IMG/VR virus record: IMGVR_UViG_3300042868_004924 | Coordinates: 1-25,745 of that record | Reading direction: 5' to 3' (one strand) | Source of the DNA: a virus | DNA: 25,745 nt | Part shown: positions 8,472-19,208 of the stretch, one piece after another | Layout: each line of letters opens with the position of its first letter | How positions within the stretch are numbered: the stretch's first letter is position 1 | Notes under the pieces: model-generated | The model's database searches: none | Told to the model about the DNA's origin: nothing | Seen by the model: only the letters and a program-made list of their open reading frames with translations | Made by a program: the position numbers and the translations under genes

Positions 8472-9053
8472 ATGACCCGCGAAGATTGGTTGATGACTCT
8501 GATCGAAGAGGTTCGCCCCCTCTTCCCGGCCCACACTGGGCAGACCCTCCCGCAGCGCATCCGCGTCGCCTGCGGCTTCCCCAGCAGCGCCCGCCGCTCG
8601 GGCGCCATCGGCGAGTGCTGGGCCGACGCCTCCAGCGCCGACGGGACGGTCGAGATCCTCATCTCGCCGGTCCTGGACGATGTCACCACGGTGGCCGCAA
8701 CCCTGGTGCATGAGCTTTGCCATGCCCTGCCGGGTTCGATGAACCATAGCAAGACCTTTGCGACCCACGCCGCCAACATGGGTCTGGCCCCCGGCGCCAA
8801 AGGCTGGAAGGGCACCGGCCCAGGCCCCGGCTTCGATTCCCGCTATGGCGAGATCCTCGCCAGCCTGGGCGCCTACCCTCACGCTCAGTTGATTATGTCT
8901 GCCAAGCCCACGCAGACCACCAGGATGCTGAAGGCGGTCTGCCCCGCTTGCGGCTACACCGTCAGGCTCACCAAGAAGTGGGCAGACCTTGGCCTGCCCT
9001 TGTGCCACCAGGACGGCGAGCAATTCGTCCTTCAGACGACAACAGAGGAGTGA
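8472..9053 (+). CDS. SprT-like zinc metalloprotease
   Basis: 193 residues from the ATG behind a strong SD (CAGGAGG). The catalytic motif is HELCH (80-84) with a likely third zinc ligand in GSMNHSKTF (His 92). The C-terminal part holds a zinc ribbon-like CPACGY (Cys 157, Cys 160) and a later LCHQDGEQF (Cys 178). HExxH followed by a C-terminal zinc ribbon is the SprT/Spartan plan; family members digest proteins crosslinked to DNA. An upstream in-frame start at 8385 lacks an SD and would begin with a non-conserved stretch. It is the first gene of the SprT/AAA+/VWA set and ends four bases before the ATPase gene. The substrate is unknown. Confidence 0.8.
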   Translation: MTREDWLMTLIEEVRPLFPAHTGQTLPQRIRVACGFPSSARRSGAIGECWADASSADGTVEILISPVLDDVTTVAATLVHELCHALPGSMNHSKTFATHAANMGLAPGAKGWKGTGPGPGFDSRYGEILASLGAYPHAQLIMSAKPTQTTRMLKAVCPACGYTVRLTKKWADLGLPLCHQDGEQFVLQTTTEE

Positions 9054-9057
9054 CCCA

Positions 9058-10569
9058 ATGAACACCAGAGTCCTTCAGACCCTTCTCGCCCTGCCCGGGG
9101 CACAACTCGCCCGGGCCGCGAACATCGTCTGCGGTCCCGCCGAGCGCACCAAGGTCGAGGCCGCGCAGGCCCTGGCGACCGAGGTTTCACGTGGAACAGT
9201 CACGGTGGACCAAGTGCGGCAGGCTGCATCGAGCACGCCCCTCCAGCCGCCCGCCGTGCCCGTCACCCTGGGCATGCCGCAGCCCGCCTTCCAGCCGCCC
9301 CCCCGCGTTGCCCCACCCTCTCCCCCGCCCCAGGCCGATCCCAGGATCGAGGCCACCGCTCAGGTCGCCGCCCGGACCGAGGCGGAGGTGCTCAGTCTTG
9401 CCACAGAGGTCCGGACGATCAAGGGGAATCTGGTCGGCGTCGCCCAGGCAGTGGCCCAGGCCAAGGTGCTGGCCGAGGCATCAGACCGCGCCTCGGCCAG
9501 CATCATGGCCGGGATCAAGACCGAGATCGAGGCACTGCGCGATGCTGGCCCCGCGATCAATGCGGAGATCGCCGCCCAGGTCAGGACGGCACTCGCCCCA
9601 CTGCTCGCCCAGGCCACGCCGGAGACGGCCCCGGCCATCGTCGCTGCCACTGCGGGCCCCATCGGTCGTAAGTCATGCCTAGACGCTTTCGGCATCGACC
9701 TGCGCGACGCCCAGGGTGGCCCGGTGATGGTTGACCTCTGGGATGACCCCGAGGCCGAGGCAGTGGACCCCGCCTACATCTGGACCGAGTCCCTCCTGCG
9801 GCGCCTGATCCTGGGCACTGAGTCCAATGTCTGGCTGGGTGGCCCCAAGGGGACGGGCAAGTCCGAGGCTTTGAGGCAGTTCGCCGCCCGCACCGGGCGC
9901 AAGTTCACCCGCATCAACTTCCGCAAGTATTCGACGCAGGAGGACTACATCGGGGCGACCGGCCTGGACGCAGGACAGACCAGCTTCCAGCCCGGCCCAT
10001 TCCTGCGGGCCTACACGCACCCTGGCTGCGTCATCCTGCTTGACGAGGTCAGCAACACCGACCCCGGCGAGCTTGCGCCGCTGAACGGCCTGCTGGAACC
10101 CCGCGCCGCCGTCACCATCGGCGGGTCAGTCTGGCGCCGCGCCCCAGGCGTGTGCATCGCTGCCGCCGACAACACGCTCGGCACGGGTGATCAGTCGGGC
10201 AGGTACGCGGGCACCCGGGGGATGAACTCCGCGCTCATGGATCGCTTCGGTCTGGTGAGCCGCATGGACTACCTGCCGCGCAGGCTGGAGACGGACGCGC
10301 TGGTGCGCCATACCGGGTGCACCCAGGCCCTCGCCGATCATGTGATGGACGCCATCCAGGTCTGCCGGTCGAAGGTTGACACTGGCGAGGTCATCGATGC
10401 GCCCAGCATCCGCAGCGCGGTGGCCTTTATCCGCGCCCTGCGCCTGATGCCAGTAGACGAAGCCTGGGCCGACACCATCGTGGCCCGCCAGCCGGTGGAA
10501 TCGCACCCGGCACTCGCAGCCGTTTACACGGCGACCATCAACACCGACACGATCAAGGGGGCAATGTGA
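9058..10569 (+). CDS. MoxR/CobS-type AAA+ ATPase
   Basis: 503 residues. The N-terminal 190 residues are a Pro-rich linker (about 60-95) and a long Ala-rich helical region of coiled-coil type. The ATPase module has a P-loop GPKGTGKS (262-269), Walker B CVILLDEVSN (Asp 329, Glu 330), LNGLLEPRAAVTIGG, a sensor-like AAADNT and an arginine-finger region MNSALMDRFG. These mark the MoxR/AAA_5 group, whose members work with VWA proteins to remodel other proteins. The next gene encodes such a partner and starts at a GTGA overlap with this stop. An AGAGGAG SD supports the start. CobS of cobaltochelatase is related, but no cobalamin genes are present, so that name would mislead. Confidence 0.88.
   Translation: MNTRVLQTLLALPGAQLARAANIVCGPAERTKVEAAQALATEVSRGTVTVDQVRQAASSTPLQPPAVPVTLGMPQPAFQPPPRVAPPSPPPQADPRIEATAQVAARTEAEVLSLATEVRTIKGNLVGVAQAVAQAKVLAEASDRASASIMAGIKTEIEALRDAGPAINAEIAAQVRTALAPLLAQATPETAPAIVAATAGPIGRKSCLDAFGIDLRDAQGGPVMVDLWDDPEAEAVDPAYIWTESLLRRLILGTESNVWLGGPKGTGKSEALRQFAARTGRKFTRINFRKYSTQEDYIGATGLDAGQTSFQPGPFLRAYTHPGCVILLDEVSNTDPGELAPLNGLLEPRAAVTIGGSVWRRAPGVCIAAADNTLGTGDQSGRYAGTRGMNSALMDRFGLVSRMDYLPRRLETDALVRHTGCTQALADHVMDAIQVCRSKVDTGEVIDAPSIRSAVAFIRALRLMPVDEAWADTIVARQPVESHPALAAVYTATINTDTIKGAM
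9183..9198. other. parS-like ParB binding site inside the ATPase gene
   Basis: The 16-mer GGTTTCACGTGGAACA matches the bacterial chromosomal parS consensus TGTTNCACGTGNAACA at every fixed position except the first (G for T). It encodes EVSRGT within the ATPase N-terminal region. Chromosomal parS sites usually lie inside genes near oriC. A match this close is not expected by chance in 25 kb. It may let host ParB bind the phage genome; no phage parA or parB lies in this window. Confidence 0.6.
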
Positions 10570-12110
10570 TCGACGCCATCAAGACCCTGCTCGGGCGCCC
10601 GAGCATCCTGGGCTATCAGGCTCGCCACGGCCTGGAGACGTTCGCCCACGTCGCCTGCTCGGCCCTGGGCCTGCCACCCGTCCGGGTGCAGTGGGAGGCC
10701 GGGACCATGACTGCGGCAATCAACCGGCACGGGGATCTGATCCTGAGCGACATCCCCGACGATGCCCAAGTAGCCCGGAGGCAGTTCGCCCGCTGGGTCG
10801 GGTTCGTGGTGCACGAACTCCTGCACCGGCGCTATACCGACTTCGGCGCCCATGACGGGCGGCAGTACGTGGACGCGCTGCATAACGCCATCGAGGACGC
10901 ATGGATCGAGTCCCAGGCTATCAAGTCCGGCCTGCTCGGCAACATCCGGGGAGTGCTGGCAGAACTTGTGGACGGGATGACCACTGATGCCCTAGGACAG
11001 GTGACCGACTGGTCCGACCCAAGACAGTACCCCTACAGCCTCGCAGTGTTTACACGGTCACATGCCAGCATCAAGGCCCCGGTGCCTGGGACCCTGCTCC
11101 CCATCTGGCAGGAAGCCGCTCGCCGGGTCACCCAGGCGCAGAGCAGCACCGATACCCTCGCCATTGCCCGCTGGGTGTTCGATCACCTGCGCCTCCCGCC
11201 GCACAAGCAACAGCAGCAGCAACAGCAGCAACAGCAGCAGAGGGGCGACGGGCAGGGCGACGGTCAAGGGGACGGGCAGGGGGACGGCCAGGAAGTCCCC
11301 CAGGCGCCCGATGCTGGGTCTGCCAAGGTGCCTACTCCTGGGCAGGACGCGGCTGACGTTGAACCCGGCATGGAGGGTGGAGGCGGCGCCTCATTCGGTC
11401 CCACTGGAGTGCTGCCCCGCGCCGGATTGAACAGCAGTGCCCGGTGGACCGACACGGCACCCGTACCCGGGTCGCTGCGGTTTCAGATGCGCCGCCTGTT
11501 GGAGGCCAGCGCGACGGACGACATGGAGTCGCACCGACTGTCGGGCAACCTGGACACTCGCCGCCTCGCCGCCTCGGCCTGGACCGGGCGAGTCTTTGCC
11601 CGCCGCAGTGAGGAGGCTGGTATTGACGCTGCGGTGATCGTCCTGGTCGATATGTCGGGGTCGATGGCAGGCCCGCGAGCCATGGTCGCGGTGCCTGCCG
11701 CAATGGCTCTGCTCGAAACTGTCGAGTCCGCCCAGGCGCAGAGCATGGGGGTGGCATTCGGGGACATGGTCGGACCCTTCAAGTCCTGGACCGAGACGGT
11801 GCGCCGCATCGCCCCCCAGGCGCCCCGCCTCGCCATCGACGGCGGGACGAACGATGCTTTCTCCATCCGTTGGTGCCACGATCAACTGCTGCGCCACCCG
11901 GCGCCCAGGAAGGTGCTGATCGTTTTGACTGACGGAGTGGGAGATATGCGCGAGGCCCGCGCCCAGATCAAGGCCGGCACCCGGCTCGGCATCCGGACCA
12001 TTGGCATCGGCATCCAGGCTGACGTTCAGCAGGTGTATGGGCAGGGGTCGCCCAATGTCATGGCCCTGCCCGACCTTGCCAAGGTGGCTTTCCGGAGCGT
12101 GACCCGATGA
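10566..12110 (+). CDS. Metallopeptidase-like/VWA partner protein (CobT/DUF2201-like)
   Basis: 514 residues from a GTG that overlaps the ATPase stop (GTGA). The N-terminal domain has HELLH (83-87) in FVVHELLHRRYTDFG, then LHNAIEDAWIE, like the metallopeptidase-like domain of DUF2201/CobT proteins. A low-complexity linker follows: eleven Gln, then four GDGQ units, then Pro/Gly-rich sequence. The C-terminal VWA domain carries the metal-binding MIDAS motif DMSGS (362-366), a DGGTND loop and VLTDGVGD. MoxR-type ATPases act through such VWA partners, and operon order and overlap fit a fixed complex. Whether HELLH is proteolytic here is unknown. Confidence 0.85.
   Translation: MIDAIKTLLGRPSILGYQARHGLETFAHVACSALGLPPVRVQWEAGTMTAAINRHGDLILSDIPDDAQVARRQFARWVGFVVHELLHRRYTDFGAHDGRQYVDALHNAIEDAWIESQAIKSGLLGNIRGVLAELVDGMTTDALGQVTDWSDPRQYPYSLAVFTRSHASIKAPVPGTLLPIWQEAARRVTQAQSSTDTLAIARWVFDHLRLPPHKQQQQQQQQQQQRGDGQGDGQGDGQGDGQEVPQAPDAGSAKVPTPGQDAADVEPGMEGGGGASFGPTGVLPRAGLNSSARWTDTAPVPGSLRFQMRRLLEASATDDMESHRLSGNLDTRRLAASAWTGRVFARRSEEAGIDAAVIVLVDMSGSMAGPRAMVAVPAAMALLETVESAQAQSMGVAFGDMVGPFKSWTETVRRIAPQAPRLAIDGGTNDAFSIRWCHDQLLRHPAPRKVLIVLTDGVGDMREARAQIKAGTRLGIRTIGIGIQADVQQVYGQGSPNVMALPDLAKVAFRSVTR
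11208..11291 (+). repeat. CAG/CAA tract and GDGQ-coding repeats in the VWA linker
   Basis: Eleven consecutive Gln codons (CAG and CAA mixed, 11208-11240) are followed by four 12-base units that code for GDGQ. Mixed Gln codons show the tract is not a pure slippage product. It encodes a flexible hydrophilic hinge between the HELLH domain and the VWA domain and is a likely site of length variation between relatives. Confidence 0.75.
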
Positions 12111-13511: not shown

Positions 13512-13892
13512 ATGAACACGCACAAGCTCGCCATTGGGATCATCCGCGAGGTTGCACTCGGGAAACGGGAGGCATGGGACGTCCTCTGCCTTGTCGCAGA
13601 GCATGAGCCCGACTCACTGTGCCGTGCCATAGGGGTTTCGATCCCCTCTGGATTTGCCCGTGCTGGGTCTGGCACCCATGCCAAGTGGGTGGACGATGTA
13701 ATCGCGGCCATGCTATTGAACAGGGTCGAAGCAATCAAGATCATCCGCACCAACCGAGGTCTCGGCTTGAAGGAAGCCAAGGATGTCTTTGACAAGGCGA
13801 TGGAGCAGCAAAGGATGGGGATGGATGCTTCCCTGATCAGGGAAACGATTGCCGCCTGGAATGCCCCGAATCCCAATGACATTCCCTTCTGA
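13512..13892 (+). CDS. L7/L12 C-terminal-like protein with SSB-type tail
   Basis: 126 residues, SD AGGAG. Residues about 75-95 (EAIKIIRTNRGLGLKEAKDVFDKAME) match the core of the ribosomal bL12 C-terminal domain (K.IRE.TGLGLKEAKDLV), the part that contacts translation factors. The N-terminal bL12 dimer domain is absent, so this is not a replacement ribosomal protein. The final residues NDIPF match the last four residues of the SSB C-terminal tip, DIPF, which docks many repair proteins. Both features in one small protein are unusual. It overlaps the next gene by one base (TGATG). Confidence 0.72.
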   Translation: MNTHKLAIGIIREVALGKREAWDVLCLVAEHEPDSLCRAIGVSIPSGFARAGSGTHAKWVDDVIAAMLLNRVEAIKIIRTNRGLGLKEAKDVFDKAMEQQRMGMDASLIRETIAAWNAPNPNDIPF

Positions 13893-14180: not shown

Positions 14181-15872
14181 TCAGAACGCGTCTAGGTTCT
14201 CGGTGTACGTCCCTGCTGTACGGTTGAAGAGGAGGGTCGTTTCCCCCTGCGTCCCGACCCACCGATACCGGCATTTCCAAACTGCGATCTCGACGTACCT
14301 ATCCTGCCGGTGGACCGTCAAGCCGCAGTCTGCCTTGGCCCACCATGCCATTGACCCGCTGATGCTCATGCCATCCGGTCTTGGTTGATCTGTCCCTGAC
14401 CGCTGCATCTTTGAGGGATGGGCCACGAACCATGTGTGAACGTCCTGAGCCTTGCAGAACCTCTGGACCCTGGTCAGCATCTGACTGATGGCATCCGTCT
14501 CTGTGGTGTCCTTACGGTCTAGATCGATGTAGTTATACGGGTCGATAACCATTCCCCGGACGCCCATGCGCTTGACGGCTGCTCTTGCCCTGGTCAGGAT
14601 GCTATCCAAAGTGTTCGACTCTTCCCCCGCTGAGTCGATGAAGAGGAAGTGTTCCTTGACCCATGTAAACGCATCCTCCTTCTCCTTCTCAGTCATCCGA
14701 TCCCGGCCCTCAAAAAATCTCTTTCTCGTGTAAATCTCCATCAAGCGACTGATATGGATCTCCGGACTGTTCTCAAACGACGCAACAGCAAACTTCCAAT
14801 CACTGTCCCTTGCGAGGTTGACCATCAACTGATCAACGAAATTGGACTTGCCGGAGGATGGATAGCCGGTGACCACGGTCAACTGCCCCGGCGCCACCGT
14901 GTAAATGCTGTCTAGTGCCGGATAGCCGGTGCTGAACCCCGAGCCCTGCCCCTTGGAGTAAAGGTCGTTTACACGTTCCTCGAAGGTGCTGGCGTCCGAC
15001 AAACCTGCGATGGGGTACGGTTCAGCCGCCTCCGCGATGGCCCGCACATCCTCCTTGCCATTCCGAGAGGGGTCATTGAGGATCTCGTTGAAATCCTTGG
15101 CATCGAACTTTGCCAATCGGCACTTGTCCTTGCCAATCCTTCGGGCAAGCTCTTCGGCCAATGCCTGCCCCGGCGGATCCTGATCTGTTGCAAGAACGAC
15201 GTAAGGAACAGCATCAAGAAGTTCCCGTGCGTTCCATACAAATGCGAACTTCTTGTCCTCAGATGGAAGAACCTTCCCATCTGCCACCTTCAACGGCGCA
15301 CCACCGGGCACGGAAACGACGTTATCGATGCCCGCCTCTCGTGCTGAGAGGACATCGATCTCTCCTTCGACTATGACCAGAGGCTTGGTCTTGTCTGCCC
15401 ACTGCATCCCGAAGAAGTCATGCGCCCCTCCGGCATCCTGTGTAAATGCCTTCTCAGGTACAGCCCTGTACTTGGCTGCGACCATCGCTCCGTCCCGGAA
15501 GTACGGGAACCCAATGGCGTCCTCCTCCCGGTCTAGCTTGTTGAAGTACTTCCTCGTTGAGAAGAGCTTCGCATCGTCTGCCGTCAGCCTTGAGATGCCT
15601 CTGCCCTCAAGCCAAACGTAATGCTCTTCAGATAGCCTTGCGTCCTGTATCTTAGGAACAGCCTGCACGTATCTCTCCTTCCTGTGTTCTCTGTTATCCC
15701 TTGAAGGGATGATCCCGTTTACACCGCAGTGATGGCAAAAGTACAGCACTGACCCGCCTTCTTTCCGGGTCAGGGTCATGTCTTTGCTTCTTGTTTTTCG
15801 CCTGTCTCCCGAGCACTCGGGGCAGGTCACGCGGGCGTGGTCTTGGAACTGAATGCCTTCTAGGGCTATCAC
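14181..15872 (-). CDS. Bifunctional primase-helicase (T7 Gp4/Twinkle-like)
   Basis: 563 residues. An N-terminal zinc finger (Cys 17, Cys 20, Cys 46, Cys 49; CPEC and CHHC) is followed by a TOPRIM primase core (VIVEGEIDVLSAREAG near 165-180 and VVLATDQDPPG near 225) and a RecA-fold helicase (P-loop GYPSSGKSNF near 333-342, Walker B-like MVIDPYNYIDL, and WFVAHPSK). The enzyme unwinds the fork and lays lagging-strand primers. The GTG start overlaps the stop of the HNH-like gene (GTGA). The zinc finger is compact and near-complete, so priming is probably active. Several TGTAAAC/T motif copies lie inside this gene. Confidence 0.93.
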   Translation of the reverse strand: MIALEGIQFQDHARVTCPECSGDRRKTRSKDMTLTRKEGGSVLYFCHHCGVNGIIPSRDNREHRKERYVQAVPKIQDARLSEEHYVWLEGRGISRLTADDAKLFSTRKYFNKLDREEDAIGFPYFRDGAMVAAKYRAVPEKAFTQDAGGAHDFFGMQWADKTKPLVIVEGEIDVLSAREAGIDNVVSVPGGAPLKVADGKVLPSEDKKFAFVWNARELLDAVPYVVLATDQDPPGQALAEELARRIGKDKCRLAKFDAKDFNEILNDPSRNGKEDVRAIAEAAEPYPIAGLSDASTFEERVNDLYSKGQGSGFSTGYPALDSIYTVAPGQLTVVTGYPSSGKSNFVDQLMVNLARDSDWKFAVASFENSPEIHISRLMEIYTRKRFFEGRDRMTEKEKEDAFTWVKEHFLFIDSAGEESNTLDSILTRARAAVKRMGVRGMVIDPYNYIDLDRKDTTETDAISQMLTRVQRFCKAQDVHTWFVAHPSKMQRSGTDQPRPDGMSISGSMAWWAKADCGLTVHRQDRYVEIAVWKCRYRWVGTQGETTLLFNRTAGTYTENLDAF

Positions 15873-16698: not shown

Positions 16699-16760
16699 AG
16701 CCAGGGGTTGGGTGATCCCCCTGTCTTGCACTGCCCTTCCCTGAGAGAGTCAGAGAAGAA

Positions 16761-16795
16761 CCTGTCATCCTCCGTAATGCCTGTCATCCTCTGTA
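16761..16795. repeat. 16-base direct repeat, CCTGTCATCCTCYGTA
   Basis: Copies at 16761-16776 and 16780-16795 differ at one base and are offset by 19 bases, close to two helical turns. They lie about 100 bases upstream of the leftward replication operon. They may be a tandem operator or a trace of local duplication. Confidence 0.45.
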
Positions 16796-17135
16796 TCGGA
16801 TGCTGACCGATTGAGAAGGTGGGTAAGTCCTTCCGGCTGGTCCCTGCCGCCCCGCACATCACCCTGTACGCATCATTTGCTCCCTGTGCTGGAGGACACA
16901 AGGAACCCGGCCCCCTGGATCGCCGGCGTTGACAGGCCCGCTCACATGCTCTGAGCGGTAAGGTGTTTCCCGGGTGCGGTCCATGCAGACCCATTTGCTA
17001 ACGCGCCCTGACGACCATCTGCACTGAAAACCCCCGGCACCTGGGGTCAGAGGCTCAGTCTGATTGCCCAAGGGTGAGAGCCCCGGGGGTCATCAGTGAA
17101 GACGGCAGGAACATCCTAAGACAAGTTCAAAGGCT

Positions 17136-17163
17136 TTGCAAGGGCCAACCTCTGTGCTATCCT
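17136..17163 (+). promoter_or_regulatory. Rightward promoter for the candidate small RNA
   Basis: TTGCAA (17136-17141) and TATCCT (17158-17163) with a 16-base spacer, and an extended -10 TG (17155-17156). The same TGC-TAT arrangement is seen in the promoter at 17610-17638. Initiation is expected near 17170. Confidence 0.5.
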
Positions 17164-17657
17164 TGTCTCCGCTCTGTTGCTGGAGCGATCTCCCTCCTGT
17201 GGCGCTTCGGCGCCTTGGCCCCGGTTGACCTCCGTCCCGGGGCCTTTTTTTGTCCCGGCATCTCCCGGACGGTGATGACACATCGAGGGCACTCCTTGTC
17301 TTGATGCCAGTAGATGTGCTTCTCCTTGACCTGTCTGTCGTTTACATAGAGCCTTCCCTGGAGCAGATCCAAGATGAGGCTCTCGTCCAAGTCTGGTCGT
17401 CGGGAGGCGTACCAGATATGGATCTCCGCAGAGACATCCTTGTCCGTGGGGTTCTCCGCCGGGGCGCATTGCTGTTGAAACATCTCTGAGTAGGTCAGGG
17501 CCTTCTGGCTCTTGATCAGCCGAGACATCCCGCCGAACCGGACGACCCTCCTGCTGTTGGCCTTGCTTGCAGGCTCCCCAAAAATTTCTCTGGTTTCGCA
17601 GAAAAGTGCTTGCACTTGTTCTGCGCTAGTGCTATGCTCTGTCTCATCGTTCAACAC
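17157..17657 (-). CDS. rusA: RusA-family Holliday junction resolvase
   Basis: 166 residues from a GTG with an AGGAG SD; a second GTG 19 codons in (VQALFCETREIFG) is possible. The conserved part is GEPASKANSRRVVRFGG, RLIKSQKAL, ASRRPDLDESLILDLLQGRLYVNDRQV, carrying the acidic residues (DLDE, then ND) used by RusA to bind magnesium and cut four-way junctions. The RusA domain ends near ITVREMPG; the remaining 32 residues are basic, low-complexity and are encoded opposite a terminator and a structured RNA, so they are probably an add-on tail. The resolvase fits the exonuclease and annealing genes that diverge from it. Confidence 0.85.
   Translation of the reverse strand: MLNDETEHSTSAEQVQALFCETREIFGEPASKANSRRVVRFGGMSRLIKSQKALTYSEMFQQQCAPAENPTDKDVSAEIHIWYASRRPDLDESLILDLLQGRLYVNDRQVKEKHIYWHQDKECPRCVITVREMPGQKKAPGRRSTGAKAPKRHRREIAPATERRQG
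17170..17251 (+). ncRNA. Candidate structured small RNA antisense to the rusA 3' end
   Basis: About 82 bases bounded by a promoter and a strong terminator, with three adjacent perfect stems: CGCTC/GAGCG (17170-17187), GGCGC-TTCG-GCGCC (17201-17214, a stable UUCG tetraloop) and the terminator stem. No protein-coding gene upstream on this strand needs the terminator, because everything from 14181 to 17657 reads leftward. The RNA would be antisense to the last 32 codons of rusA, which look like non-conserved tail. No known RNA family is recognised; a single-stranded gap at 17188-17200 (ATCTCCCTCCTGT) is CU-rich and could pair with SD sequences. Confidence 0.5.
17217..17251 (+). terminator. Strong rightward rho-independent terminator inside rusA
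   Basis: Stem GGCCCCGG (17217-17224) pairs with CCGGGGCC (17237-17244) around a 12-base loop and is followed by seven T (17245-17251). There is no matching T-run for leftward transcription, so it works rightward only. Confidence 0.8.
17610..17638 (+). promoter_or_regulatory. Rightward promoter for the recombination operon
   Basis: TTGCAC (17610-17615) and TATGCT (17633-17638) are separated by exactly 17 bases, with an extended -10 TG. Initiation near 17645 gives a 24-base leader to the TTG start of the nuclease gene. The promoter lies inside the rusA coding region, so the two divergent transcripts overlap or collide at their 5' ends. Confidence 0.65.
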
Positions 17658-17669
17658 AGGAGATCTCCT
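17658..17669. promoter_or_regulatory. Palindromic ribosome-binding site shared by two divergent genes
   Basis: AGGAGATCTCCT is a perfect 12-base palindrome. Read rightward, AGGAG stands six bases before the TTG start of the nuclease gene; read leftward, the same sequence puts AGGAG seven bases before the GTG start of rusA. The starts are only 11 bases apart. One symmetric element thus decides both starts, and both are weak start codons. Confidence 0.75.
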
Positions 17670-18544
17670 TGATCATCACAAACAACCATGGCGCTCCGGC
17701 TACGTTGGTCGCCTTGGCCCGGAAAAACTACTACTCAAAGGGGGACTCGGACTACTCCGTCACGGAGCTTCTGTCTCCACCCAGGGTTCGACGGCTTCAA
17801 GAGCGGCACGATGCCGTCTTGACAAAGGATGTCTCTGACATGCTCTGGGCCCTGCTTGGATCGGCACTCCACGTTGTAGCTGAACGGGCCTCTGCCGAGG
17901 ATCATGTCACAGAAGAGAGGATCGTCGCGGACATCGACGGTGTCAAGGTCTCTGGTGGCATTGATCTTCAGGAGATGACTCCCTCGGGCGTGATCATCAC
18001 CGACTACAAGTTCACTTCTGCCTACTCCGTGATGAACGAGAAGAAGGAGTGGGAAGAGCAGTTGAACCTGTACAAGTGGCTGGTAGAGTCCGTCAAGCGG
18101 ATTCCGGTCAAGGGCCTTCGGATCTGCGCCCTGATCCGGGATTTCTCTCGCCATGATAGGCGCGAGAATTACCCGGACGCTCCGATCCATATGGTGGACA
18201 TCCCCATGTGGGACTCTGTGACCGCAGAGGCGTTTGTACGCTCCCGTTTACAGCTTCACACCGAAGCAAAGTTTGCAGATGCGATGGAGGAGCCCCTTCC
18301 ACCATGCTCTGCGGAAGAGCGTTGGTTTTCCGAGACAACCTACGCCGTGAAGAAGGAAGGCAGGAAGACTGCCGTCCGCGTGTTCAAGACCATCGAAGAG
18401 GCCCAAGAGTTGGCCGCAAAGGAGAAGGGATATGTCGAAACCCGAGCAGGAGAGCCCCGCCGCTGCACCGGAAACTTCTGTGGAGTCGCAGAGTTCTGCG
18501 AGCAGTACCAGTCAGAAGTCAATCTACGACTTGCTGAAACTTGA
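17669..18544 (+). CDS. Cas4/RecB-like PD-(D/E)XK exonuclease
   Basis: 291 residues from TTG with a good SD. The nuclease core is VSGGIDLQ (Asp near 98), IITDYKFTS (Asp near 112, Lys near 114) and the helix EEQLNLYKWLVES, the usual motif order of RecB-type nucleases. Cysteines 213 (PPCSAEERW), 266, 271 and 277 (CTGNFCGVAEFC) can hold a Fe-S cluster as in Cas4 and AddB. Such nucleases resect ends for phage recombination. The last 113 bases overlap the annealing-protein gene in another frame, across the cysteine motif. N-terminal 45 residues (VTELLSPPRVRRLQERH) fit the DNA-entry region. It could act in replication instead of recombination. Confidence 0.87.
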   Translation: MIITNNHGAPATLVALARKNYYSKGDSDYSVTELLSPPRVRRLQERHDAVLTKDVSDMLWALLGSALHVVAERASAEDHVTEERIVADIDGVKVSGGIDLQEMTPSGVIITDYKFTSAYSVMNEKKEWEEQLNLYKWLVESVKRIPVKGLRICALIRDFSRHDRRENYPDAPIHMVDIPMWDSVTAEAFVRSRLQLHTEAKFADAMEEPLPPCSAEERWFSETTYAVKKEGRKTAVRVFKTIEEAQELAAKEKGYVETRAGEPRRCTGNFCGVAEFCEQYQSEVNLRLAET

Positions 18545-19208
18545 TGTCAGCAAGTTCATCGAGAAGAAGCAAGGGCTCAGCTACGTCTCCTGGGCTCATG
18601 CCTGGGCGATTGCCCTGAACGCAGACCCATACGCGAACTTCCGTGTTCATACGTTCGGGCCCAACGGTGACGAGTGCTACATGCGTGTAAATGGCACGGC
18701 GATGGTGTGGGTCGATGTCACCCTCTTCTCCAAGTCCATCACTTGCTGGCTTCCGGTCATGGACCACCGCAACAAGCCCATCGCTGACCCGGATTCTTTC
18801 CAGGTCAATACGGCACTCATGCGTTGCTTGACGAAGGCACTTGGATTCCACGGCCTGGGGCTGAACGTCTACGCGGGAGAAGATCTGCCTCTGTCCGTCC
18901 CTGGAGAGGAAGAAGACAAGCCCGCCAAAGTGCCTGCAAAGGCTCAGAAGGACTCTCCCAAGGAGCCTGTGAAGGAGCCTGTGAAGGAGGAGGCGAAGAG
19001 CCCTGATGAAGATCCCCAACTGTCTGCAGAACTGTTTACAGATGGGTTTGTGGAATACATGATCGTTGTGCAAAGCACAGACGGCCTGAACAGCTACTGG
19101 AAGTCCAACCAGACCAAGCTGGACAAGCTCAAGGCGAAGTACCCCGATCTGTATGAGCGATGCCTGTCCGTTGCCAAGGACAGGAAGCAGCAACTGAGCA
19201 AGGAGTGA
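18432..19208 (+). CDS. DUF1071/Sak3-type single-strand annealing protein
   Basis: 258 residues. Core from about residue 30: SIYDLLKLDVSKFIEKKQGLSY, VSWAHAWAIALNADPYA, ITCWLPVMDHRNKPI and TALMRCLTKALGFHGLGLNVYAGEDLP, the DUF1071 signature. These proteins anneal complementary single strands and pair with an exonuclease, here the gene upstream. The C-terminal third is a Lys/Pro/Glu-rich linker (KEPVKEPVKEEAKSPDED) and a small helical end. The start lies 113 bases inside the nuclease gene; SIYDLL is conserved and no later start keeps it, and AAGGAG precedes the ATG, so the overlap is real. The extra N-terminal 29 residues are Ser/Ala/Glu-rich. Confidence 0.88.
   Translation: MSKPEQESPAAAPETSVESQSSASSTSQKSIYDLLKLDVSKFIEKKQGLSYVSWAHAWAIALNADPYANFRVHTFGPNGDECYMRVNGTAMVWVDVTLFSKSITCWLPVMDHRNKPIADPDSFQVNTALMRCLTKALGFHGLGLNVYAGEDLPLSVPGEEEDKPAKVPAKAQKDSPKEPVKEPVKEEAKSPDEDPQLSAELFTDGFVEYMIVVQSTDGLNSYWKSNQTKLDKLKAKYPDLYERCLSVAKDRKQQLSKE

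Follow-up and report, generated by a model that had tools for sequence, protein, structure and literature searches.

The window analyzed here, a stretch of 25,745 nucleotides, is a 25.7-kb virus contig for which no near relative was found among isolated phages. It carries a leftward gene for a RusA-like Holliday junction resolvase, followed by rightward genes for an exonuclease and an annealing protein (Table 1). The initial annotation had proposed that a small RNA is encoded opposite the end of rusA, and a sequence check found every claimed part at its position (17135 to 17251, plus strand). These include a promoter with an extended −10 element, a hairpin, an open CU-rich stretch resembling an anti-Shine-Dalgarno (anti-SD) sequence, a UUCG hairpin, and a rightward terminator with a good stem and seven T residues; an open reading frame check confirmed that no rightward gene ends at this terminator. 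On the opposite strand, the RNA overlaps the final ~27 codons of rusA. Its start at position 17170 (±2) is a prediction based on spacing from the −10 element, and its 3' end was placed in the T run. Elsewhere in the window, a MoxR-type AAA ATPase gene is followed by a gene for a CobT-like von Willebrand factor A protein (8989 to 12110, plus strand), and the PHROGs entries for this pair describe cobaltochelatase-like host-takeover genes.

Table 1. Coordinates of features discussed in the text (window positions unless a relative is named)
Feature	Position	Strand	Details
Promoter	17136-17163	+	-35 TTGCAA, 17136-17141; spacer 16 nt; extended -10 TGC-TATCCT, 17155-17163
Small RNA, ~82 nt, predicted	17170-17251	+	Fold z score, covariation, covariance model R1
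5' hairpin	17170-17187	+	CGCUCU-GUUGCU-GGAGCG; begins at predicted transcript start
Open anti-SD segment, proposed seed	17188-17200	+	AUCUCCCUCCUGU; CU-rich, invariant, unpaired
Second hairpin	17201-17214	+	UUCG tetraloop; pairing kept through base changes
Intrinsic terminator	17217-17251	+	8-bp stem 17217-17224/17237-17244; T7 at 17245-17251
rusA-like Holliday junction resolvase gene	17157-17657	-	Pfam RusA, E = 6e-7
PD-(D/E)XK exonuclease gene	17669-18544	+	
Sak-type annealing protein (annealase) gene	18432-19208	+	
Candidate target, primase-helicase internal start	15655-15695	-	SD CACAGGAAGGAGAGAUAC and GTG; putative function
Exonuclease promoter and Shine-Dalgarno	17608-17670	+	CACAGGAG; SD complementary to seed
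RF02932 matches in relatives	L015:3900-4017, L026:3915-4032, L028:3679-3795, L239:2637-2759	+	

Folding of the window RNA gave −39.9 kcal/mol with a z score of −4.2, better than 200 of 200 shuffled sequences, and assigned the seed an unpaired probability of 0.86 to 1.0. The promoter scored 8 of 12, under the threshold of a generic single-sequence scan, and terminator-like sites were close to chance in the window (10 found, 6.2 expected). By itself, the window sequence makes a suggestive case for a small RNA; the significance of the element is comparative.

Conservation beside rusA in related phages

A total of 53 related loci were collected via RusA, and the element was present as a near copy along its whole length in eight contigs beyond the window, with five distinct sequences among the close relatives. 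In every one of these five sequences, the three helices retained all of their 20 pairs (100% of pair cells), and four pairs had changed on both sides, with at least one such pair per helix. U-G became A-U in the 5' hairpin of L006, L007, and L008, G-C became A-U and U-A became C-G in the second hairpin, and G-C became A-U in the terminator. Control structures shifted by 1 to 3 columns had no both-side changes, and 2 of 500 shuffles matched the covariation score. Because only five sequences were available, the covariation alone is modest, though all helices agree. The 13 unpaired seed bases were identical throughout the close relatives, and the promoter element TTTGCAAG was retained in every one, with TATCCT or TACACT as the −10 element.

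The rusA tail was poorly conserved, as the initial annotation had stated. Variable columns at codon positions 1, 2, and 3 numbered 23, 11, and 52 in the rusA core but 7, 8, and 7 in the RNA overlap, and in L008 the tail is frame-shifted across the RNA. The conserved entity is therefore the RNA rather than the protein tail, and a coding explanation for the conserved block was ruled out by the same two observations. The check proposed in the initial annotation, covariation in relatives set against conservation of the tail as protein, thus came out in favor of the RNA. A different explanation, that the conserved block is the Shine-Dalgarno sequence of an overlapping minus-strand gene, was rejected on reading by eye, since no consistent start codon follows.

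A covariance model extended the family to distant relatives, with weaker matches at the same spot in L012 (E = 1e-6), L034 (E = 2e-5), and L011 (E = 3e-5), values that are rough due to short calibration. Direct inspection found a compact version of the element at nearly every rusA relative of the group. A terminator on the antisense strand at the rusA 3' end was present at 28 of 31 distinct loci, compared to 0 of 31 at each of three control positions, and a GCAGTTG/CAGTTGC/TGTTGCT motif was likewise found at 28 of 31, with none at control positions or on the other strand. In a wider set outside the window clade, the terminator lay at the same place in 68 of 69 distinct loci. Within this set, CUCC occurred no more than 50 bases before the terminator in 61 of 68 loci (random windows, 10; composition shuffles, 21), a TATAAT/TACACT/TAAACT-type −10 element immediately before the RNA in 56 (shuffles, 7), and exact GCAGTTG in 33 (random windows, 0.9). 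These counts are not independent, because the loci are related, but much of the flanking sequence has diverged.

Among the 58 RNAs with a recognizable −10 element, predicted length was 51 to 105 nt (median, 70). The 5' hairpin usually began ~7 nt past the −10 element, which is where transcription should begin. CUCC bases had a mean unpaired probability of 0.80, compared to 0.52 for other bases, and were the more open in 52 of 54 RNAs. The comparisons show that the predicted promoter, 5' hairpin, exposed CU-rich segment, and terminator are kept in dozens of uncultivated environmental phages. GCAGTTG was all-or-none, either exact or absent, and the tested single-base variants did not occur. As the most invariant motif in half of the family, GCAGUUG is unaccounted for by anti-SD pairing, and the search for sites complementary to it found no conserved one except the locus itself.

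The element was absent from the more distant rusA loci L111, L118, L122, and L126 and from rusA relatives in bacterial genome bins. The rusA relatives in INPHARED were few and distant, and two of them, Planktothrix phage Pag-Yong1 and podovirus MW202484, were without it. A search for multiple copies per phage found none that was convincing.

Other probable structured elements also occur beside rusA. In the window, ~390 noncoding bases (16740 to 17135, minus strand) separate rusA from its leftward neighbor, with 76 to 89% invariant columns over most of the stretch, compared to 73% in rusA. The minus-strand consensus fold contains 122 pairs; 94.9% of its cells are paired, and 13 of the pairs are changed on both sides, compared to 1 to 3 in slid controls. 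This stretch has no Rfam match and shares 52 bases with podovirus MW202484. It probably represents another structured element, of RNA or DNA, that is larger than the first. In several relatives, rusA is followed on its own strand by a Betaproteobacteria-1 RNA (RF02932, 90 to 95 bits), and in L032 and L243 a tRNA match falls in the same stretch. Structured RNAs seem to accumulate in the neighborhood of rusA. Upstream of the small RNA, the palindrome GTTTAAAC is repeated in the intergenic region (L013, L023, and L040 among relatives); it overlaps the −10 element of the RNA in L040, L048, and L050 and is a possible operator.

Candidate targets and known anti-SD RNAs

In target prediction with the seed, as suggested in the initial annotation, the best predicted phage target was the internal start of the primase-helicase gene (14181 to 15872), with a duplex of −20.3 kcal/mol (CACAGGA-A-GG-A-GAGAU, 14 pairs with two bulged A's) in the top 0.2% of genome windows. 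In most relatives this gene conserves a strong internal SD with GTG or TTG just past the zinc-binding region. Internal initiation probably gives a short helicase form, by analogy with T7 gene 4, in which an internal start yields such a product. Further predicted partners among phage ribosome-binding sites were those of a SprT-like gene at 8472 (−19.2 kcal/mol) and a gene at 13512 (−17.6 kcal/mol). However, predicted phage targets were only moderately above background. From clade to clade, none showed convincing covariation with the seed, and the RNA may therefore act mainly on host mRNAs. The exonuclease SD has 8 bases complementary to the seed and ranked only in the top 3%; it was rejected as a unique target, as its complementarity is not exceptional and does not covary with the seed. 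The exonuclease promoter (17600 to 17645, plus strand; CTTGCAC..TAGTGCTATGCT) and that of the small RNA (17135 to 17163, plus strand; TTTGCAAG..TGTGCTATCC) are alike in layout, and AGTGCT/AGCACT repeats, perhaps sites of a common regulator, recur upstream of the exonuclease gene in relatives.

The window had no Rfam match at gathering thresholds. Weak full-length matches of the window RNA included the anti-SD sRNA families RF02278, sX13, ar14, and CcsR1, with 16.6 bits against RF02278 (gathering score, 50), 17.5 bits against sX13 (RF02232; cutoff, 50) in an alignment lying partly upstream of the promoter, and 15.2 bits against ar14 (RF02344; gathering threshold, 58.8). Several phage copies scored 25 to 39 bits against RF02278, the best being L185 (38.7 bits, E = 3e-4), and none of those tested reached 50. 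The L209 RNA scored 36.2 bits against RF00519 (suhB/mmgR; E = 9e-4), also below the cutoff. Mimicry of the whole 16S rRNA 3' tail was rejected, since it did no better than some shuffled queries.

In build, the window RNA has the exposed CUCC, short hairpin, and intrinsic terminator of RF02278 and the unpaired, conserved CU-rich seed of anti-SD sRNAs in general. RF02278 RNAs (bdhR1; related to Bordetella S17) are ~60 to 70 nt long, with CUCC in the 5' region and loop, a small hairpin, and a GCCCG-type terminator, whereas the window RNA is phage encoded, adjoins rusA, has an extra hairpin in its clade, and belongs to a family with the GCAGUUG motif. S17 and bdhR1 repress by pairing with ribosome-binding sites (PMC11722255). 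The sX13 RNA of Xanthomonas, in which stable hairpins expose C-rich segments, represses mRNAs whose start codons lie close to G-rich sites (PMC3771888); the layout is shared, and homology to the window RNA is unsupported. Rhizobial NfeR1 (alpha-r14, RF02344) silences mRNAs at the start site through anti-SD motifs (CCUCCUCCC) in unpaired regions (PMC10746234), although it differs from the window RNA in having three hairpins with a motif in each. By these likenesses the window RNA appears to work like an anti-SD sRNA; membership in any named family is unsupported.

Betaproteobacterial genomes with a rusA relative hold RF02278 copies, with several each in two of the three genomes, and these are built like the phage RNA, with CUCC, a small hairpin, and a GCCCG terminator. 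Metagenome-assembled bins with rusA relatives, together with RF02932 in relatives, point weakly to Betaproteobacteria as hosts. OOP, sar, c4, and prophage RNAs are covered in a 2025 review of sRNAs derived from phages, in which rusA is not mentioned (PMC12197685). A search of freely available papers for rusA with small RNAs found no such element.

Antisense position, alternatives, and proposed action in trans

The RNA lies opposite rusA in the window, as the initial annotation described, and in most relatives, but not in all of them. In three contigs from two lineages (L072, L073, and L076), the element instead shares its strand with rusA and sits immediately 3' of the rusA stop codon, where it carries a TAGAAT −10 element ~7 nt before a C-rich hairpin, then GCAGTTGTCATCC and a terminator. 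Over 46 nt, the copy in L073 shares 87% identity with its antisense counterparts in L040 and L042 (E = 4e-9), and it also resembles those in L015 and L026. Because homologous copies occur in both orientations, the family is kept whether antisense to rusA or not. As far as such comparisons go, this inversion makes it unlikely that OOP-like control of rusA is what has been conserved, and it favors action in trans; the position over the rusA tail appears incidental, a matter of packing and not mechanism. A similar layout is known from lambda OOP, a phage sRNA that has a promoter and terminator of its own and runs opposite the 3' end of cII, sharing 52 bases with the part encoding the C terminus (PMC5869508); the window RNA matches it in size as well. 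A cis-antisense RNA controlling rusA would also account for the recurrence of this arrangement in nearly all relatives. In contrast to OOP, orientation relative to the gene varies here, an anti-SD segment is exposed, and unpaired sequence is conserved; perfect cis complementarity would require neither that segment nor GCAGUUG, and in several phages the CUCC part falls past the rusA stop. Cis control of rusA is accordingly an improbable explanation.

Somewhat less probable again is that the RNA simply mimics host CUCC-type sRNAs such as S17/bdhR1, or competes for a chaperone such as Hfq, with no regulon of its own. The similarly built RF02278 copies in betaproteobacterial genomes and the intermediate scores of several phage copies fit this explanation, but every tested phage locus fell short of the RF02278 gathering score and an anti-SD sequence is easily reached by convergence. 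We consider it very unlikely that the element is an attenuated early leader, whose terminator a phage antiterminator overrides so that transcription continues into the exonuclease operon. Lambdoid phages have short leaders consisting of a promoter and a terminator, and the next rightward genes, encoding the exonuclease and annealase, begin ~420 nt downstream; however, read-through would cross all of rusA antisense, the exonuclease has a similar promoter-like region of its own, and the inverted elements are directed away from it. Generic scans of the single sequence were unexceptional, as expected if a promoter-like site and a terminator were arranged by chance in GC-rich DNA, yet family-wide conservation compared to empty controls, covariation, and the invariant seed contradict this, leaving chance with next to no credibility.

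The best reading is that these elements are a new phage family of trans-acting anti-SD sRNAs that would work in the manner of S17/bdhR1 of betaproteobacteria, sX13 of Xanthomonas, and NfeR1 of rhizobia but falls below every Rfam cutoff. We put at about two in three the probability that the window encodes a real, independently transcribed phage sRNA of ~82 nt that acts in trans via its anti-SD segment, a mode of action on SD-containing mRNAs that the initial annotation had raised as possible and that the exposed stretch would permit. Transcribed from its own promoter, the RNA would use its unpaired CUCC-containing segment to pair with the SD regions of selected mRNAs, blocking 30S binding and reducing translation of host genes, phage genes, or both, probably early in infection. 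It is possible, though doubtful, that the phage RNA imitates host CUCC-type sRNAs while GCAGUUG recruits a host factor or target; it would then be an RNA-only takeover tool, redirecting host translation early in infection.

To our knowledge, few phage-encoded trans-acting sRNAs are known, mostly from enterobacterial prophages. The family described here is tied to one gene position and combines a seed like that of bacterial anti-SD regulators with a second invariant motif, and its natural inversion separates cis-antisense from trans action. Since the RNA displays a segment able to pair with ribosome-binding sites, these phages probably tune translation of messages in the infected cell. The family offers a concrete test of whether phages can control translation by RNA alone.
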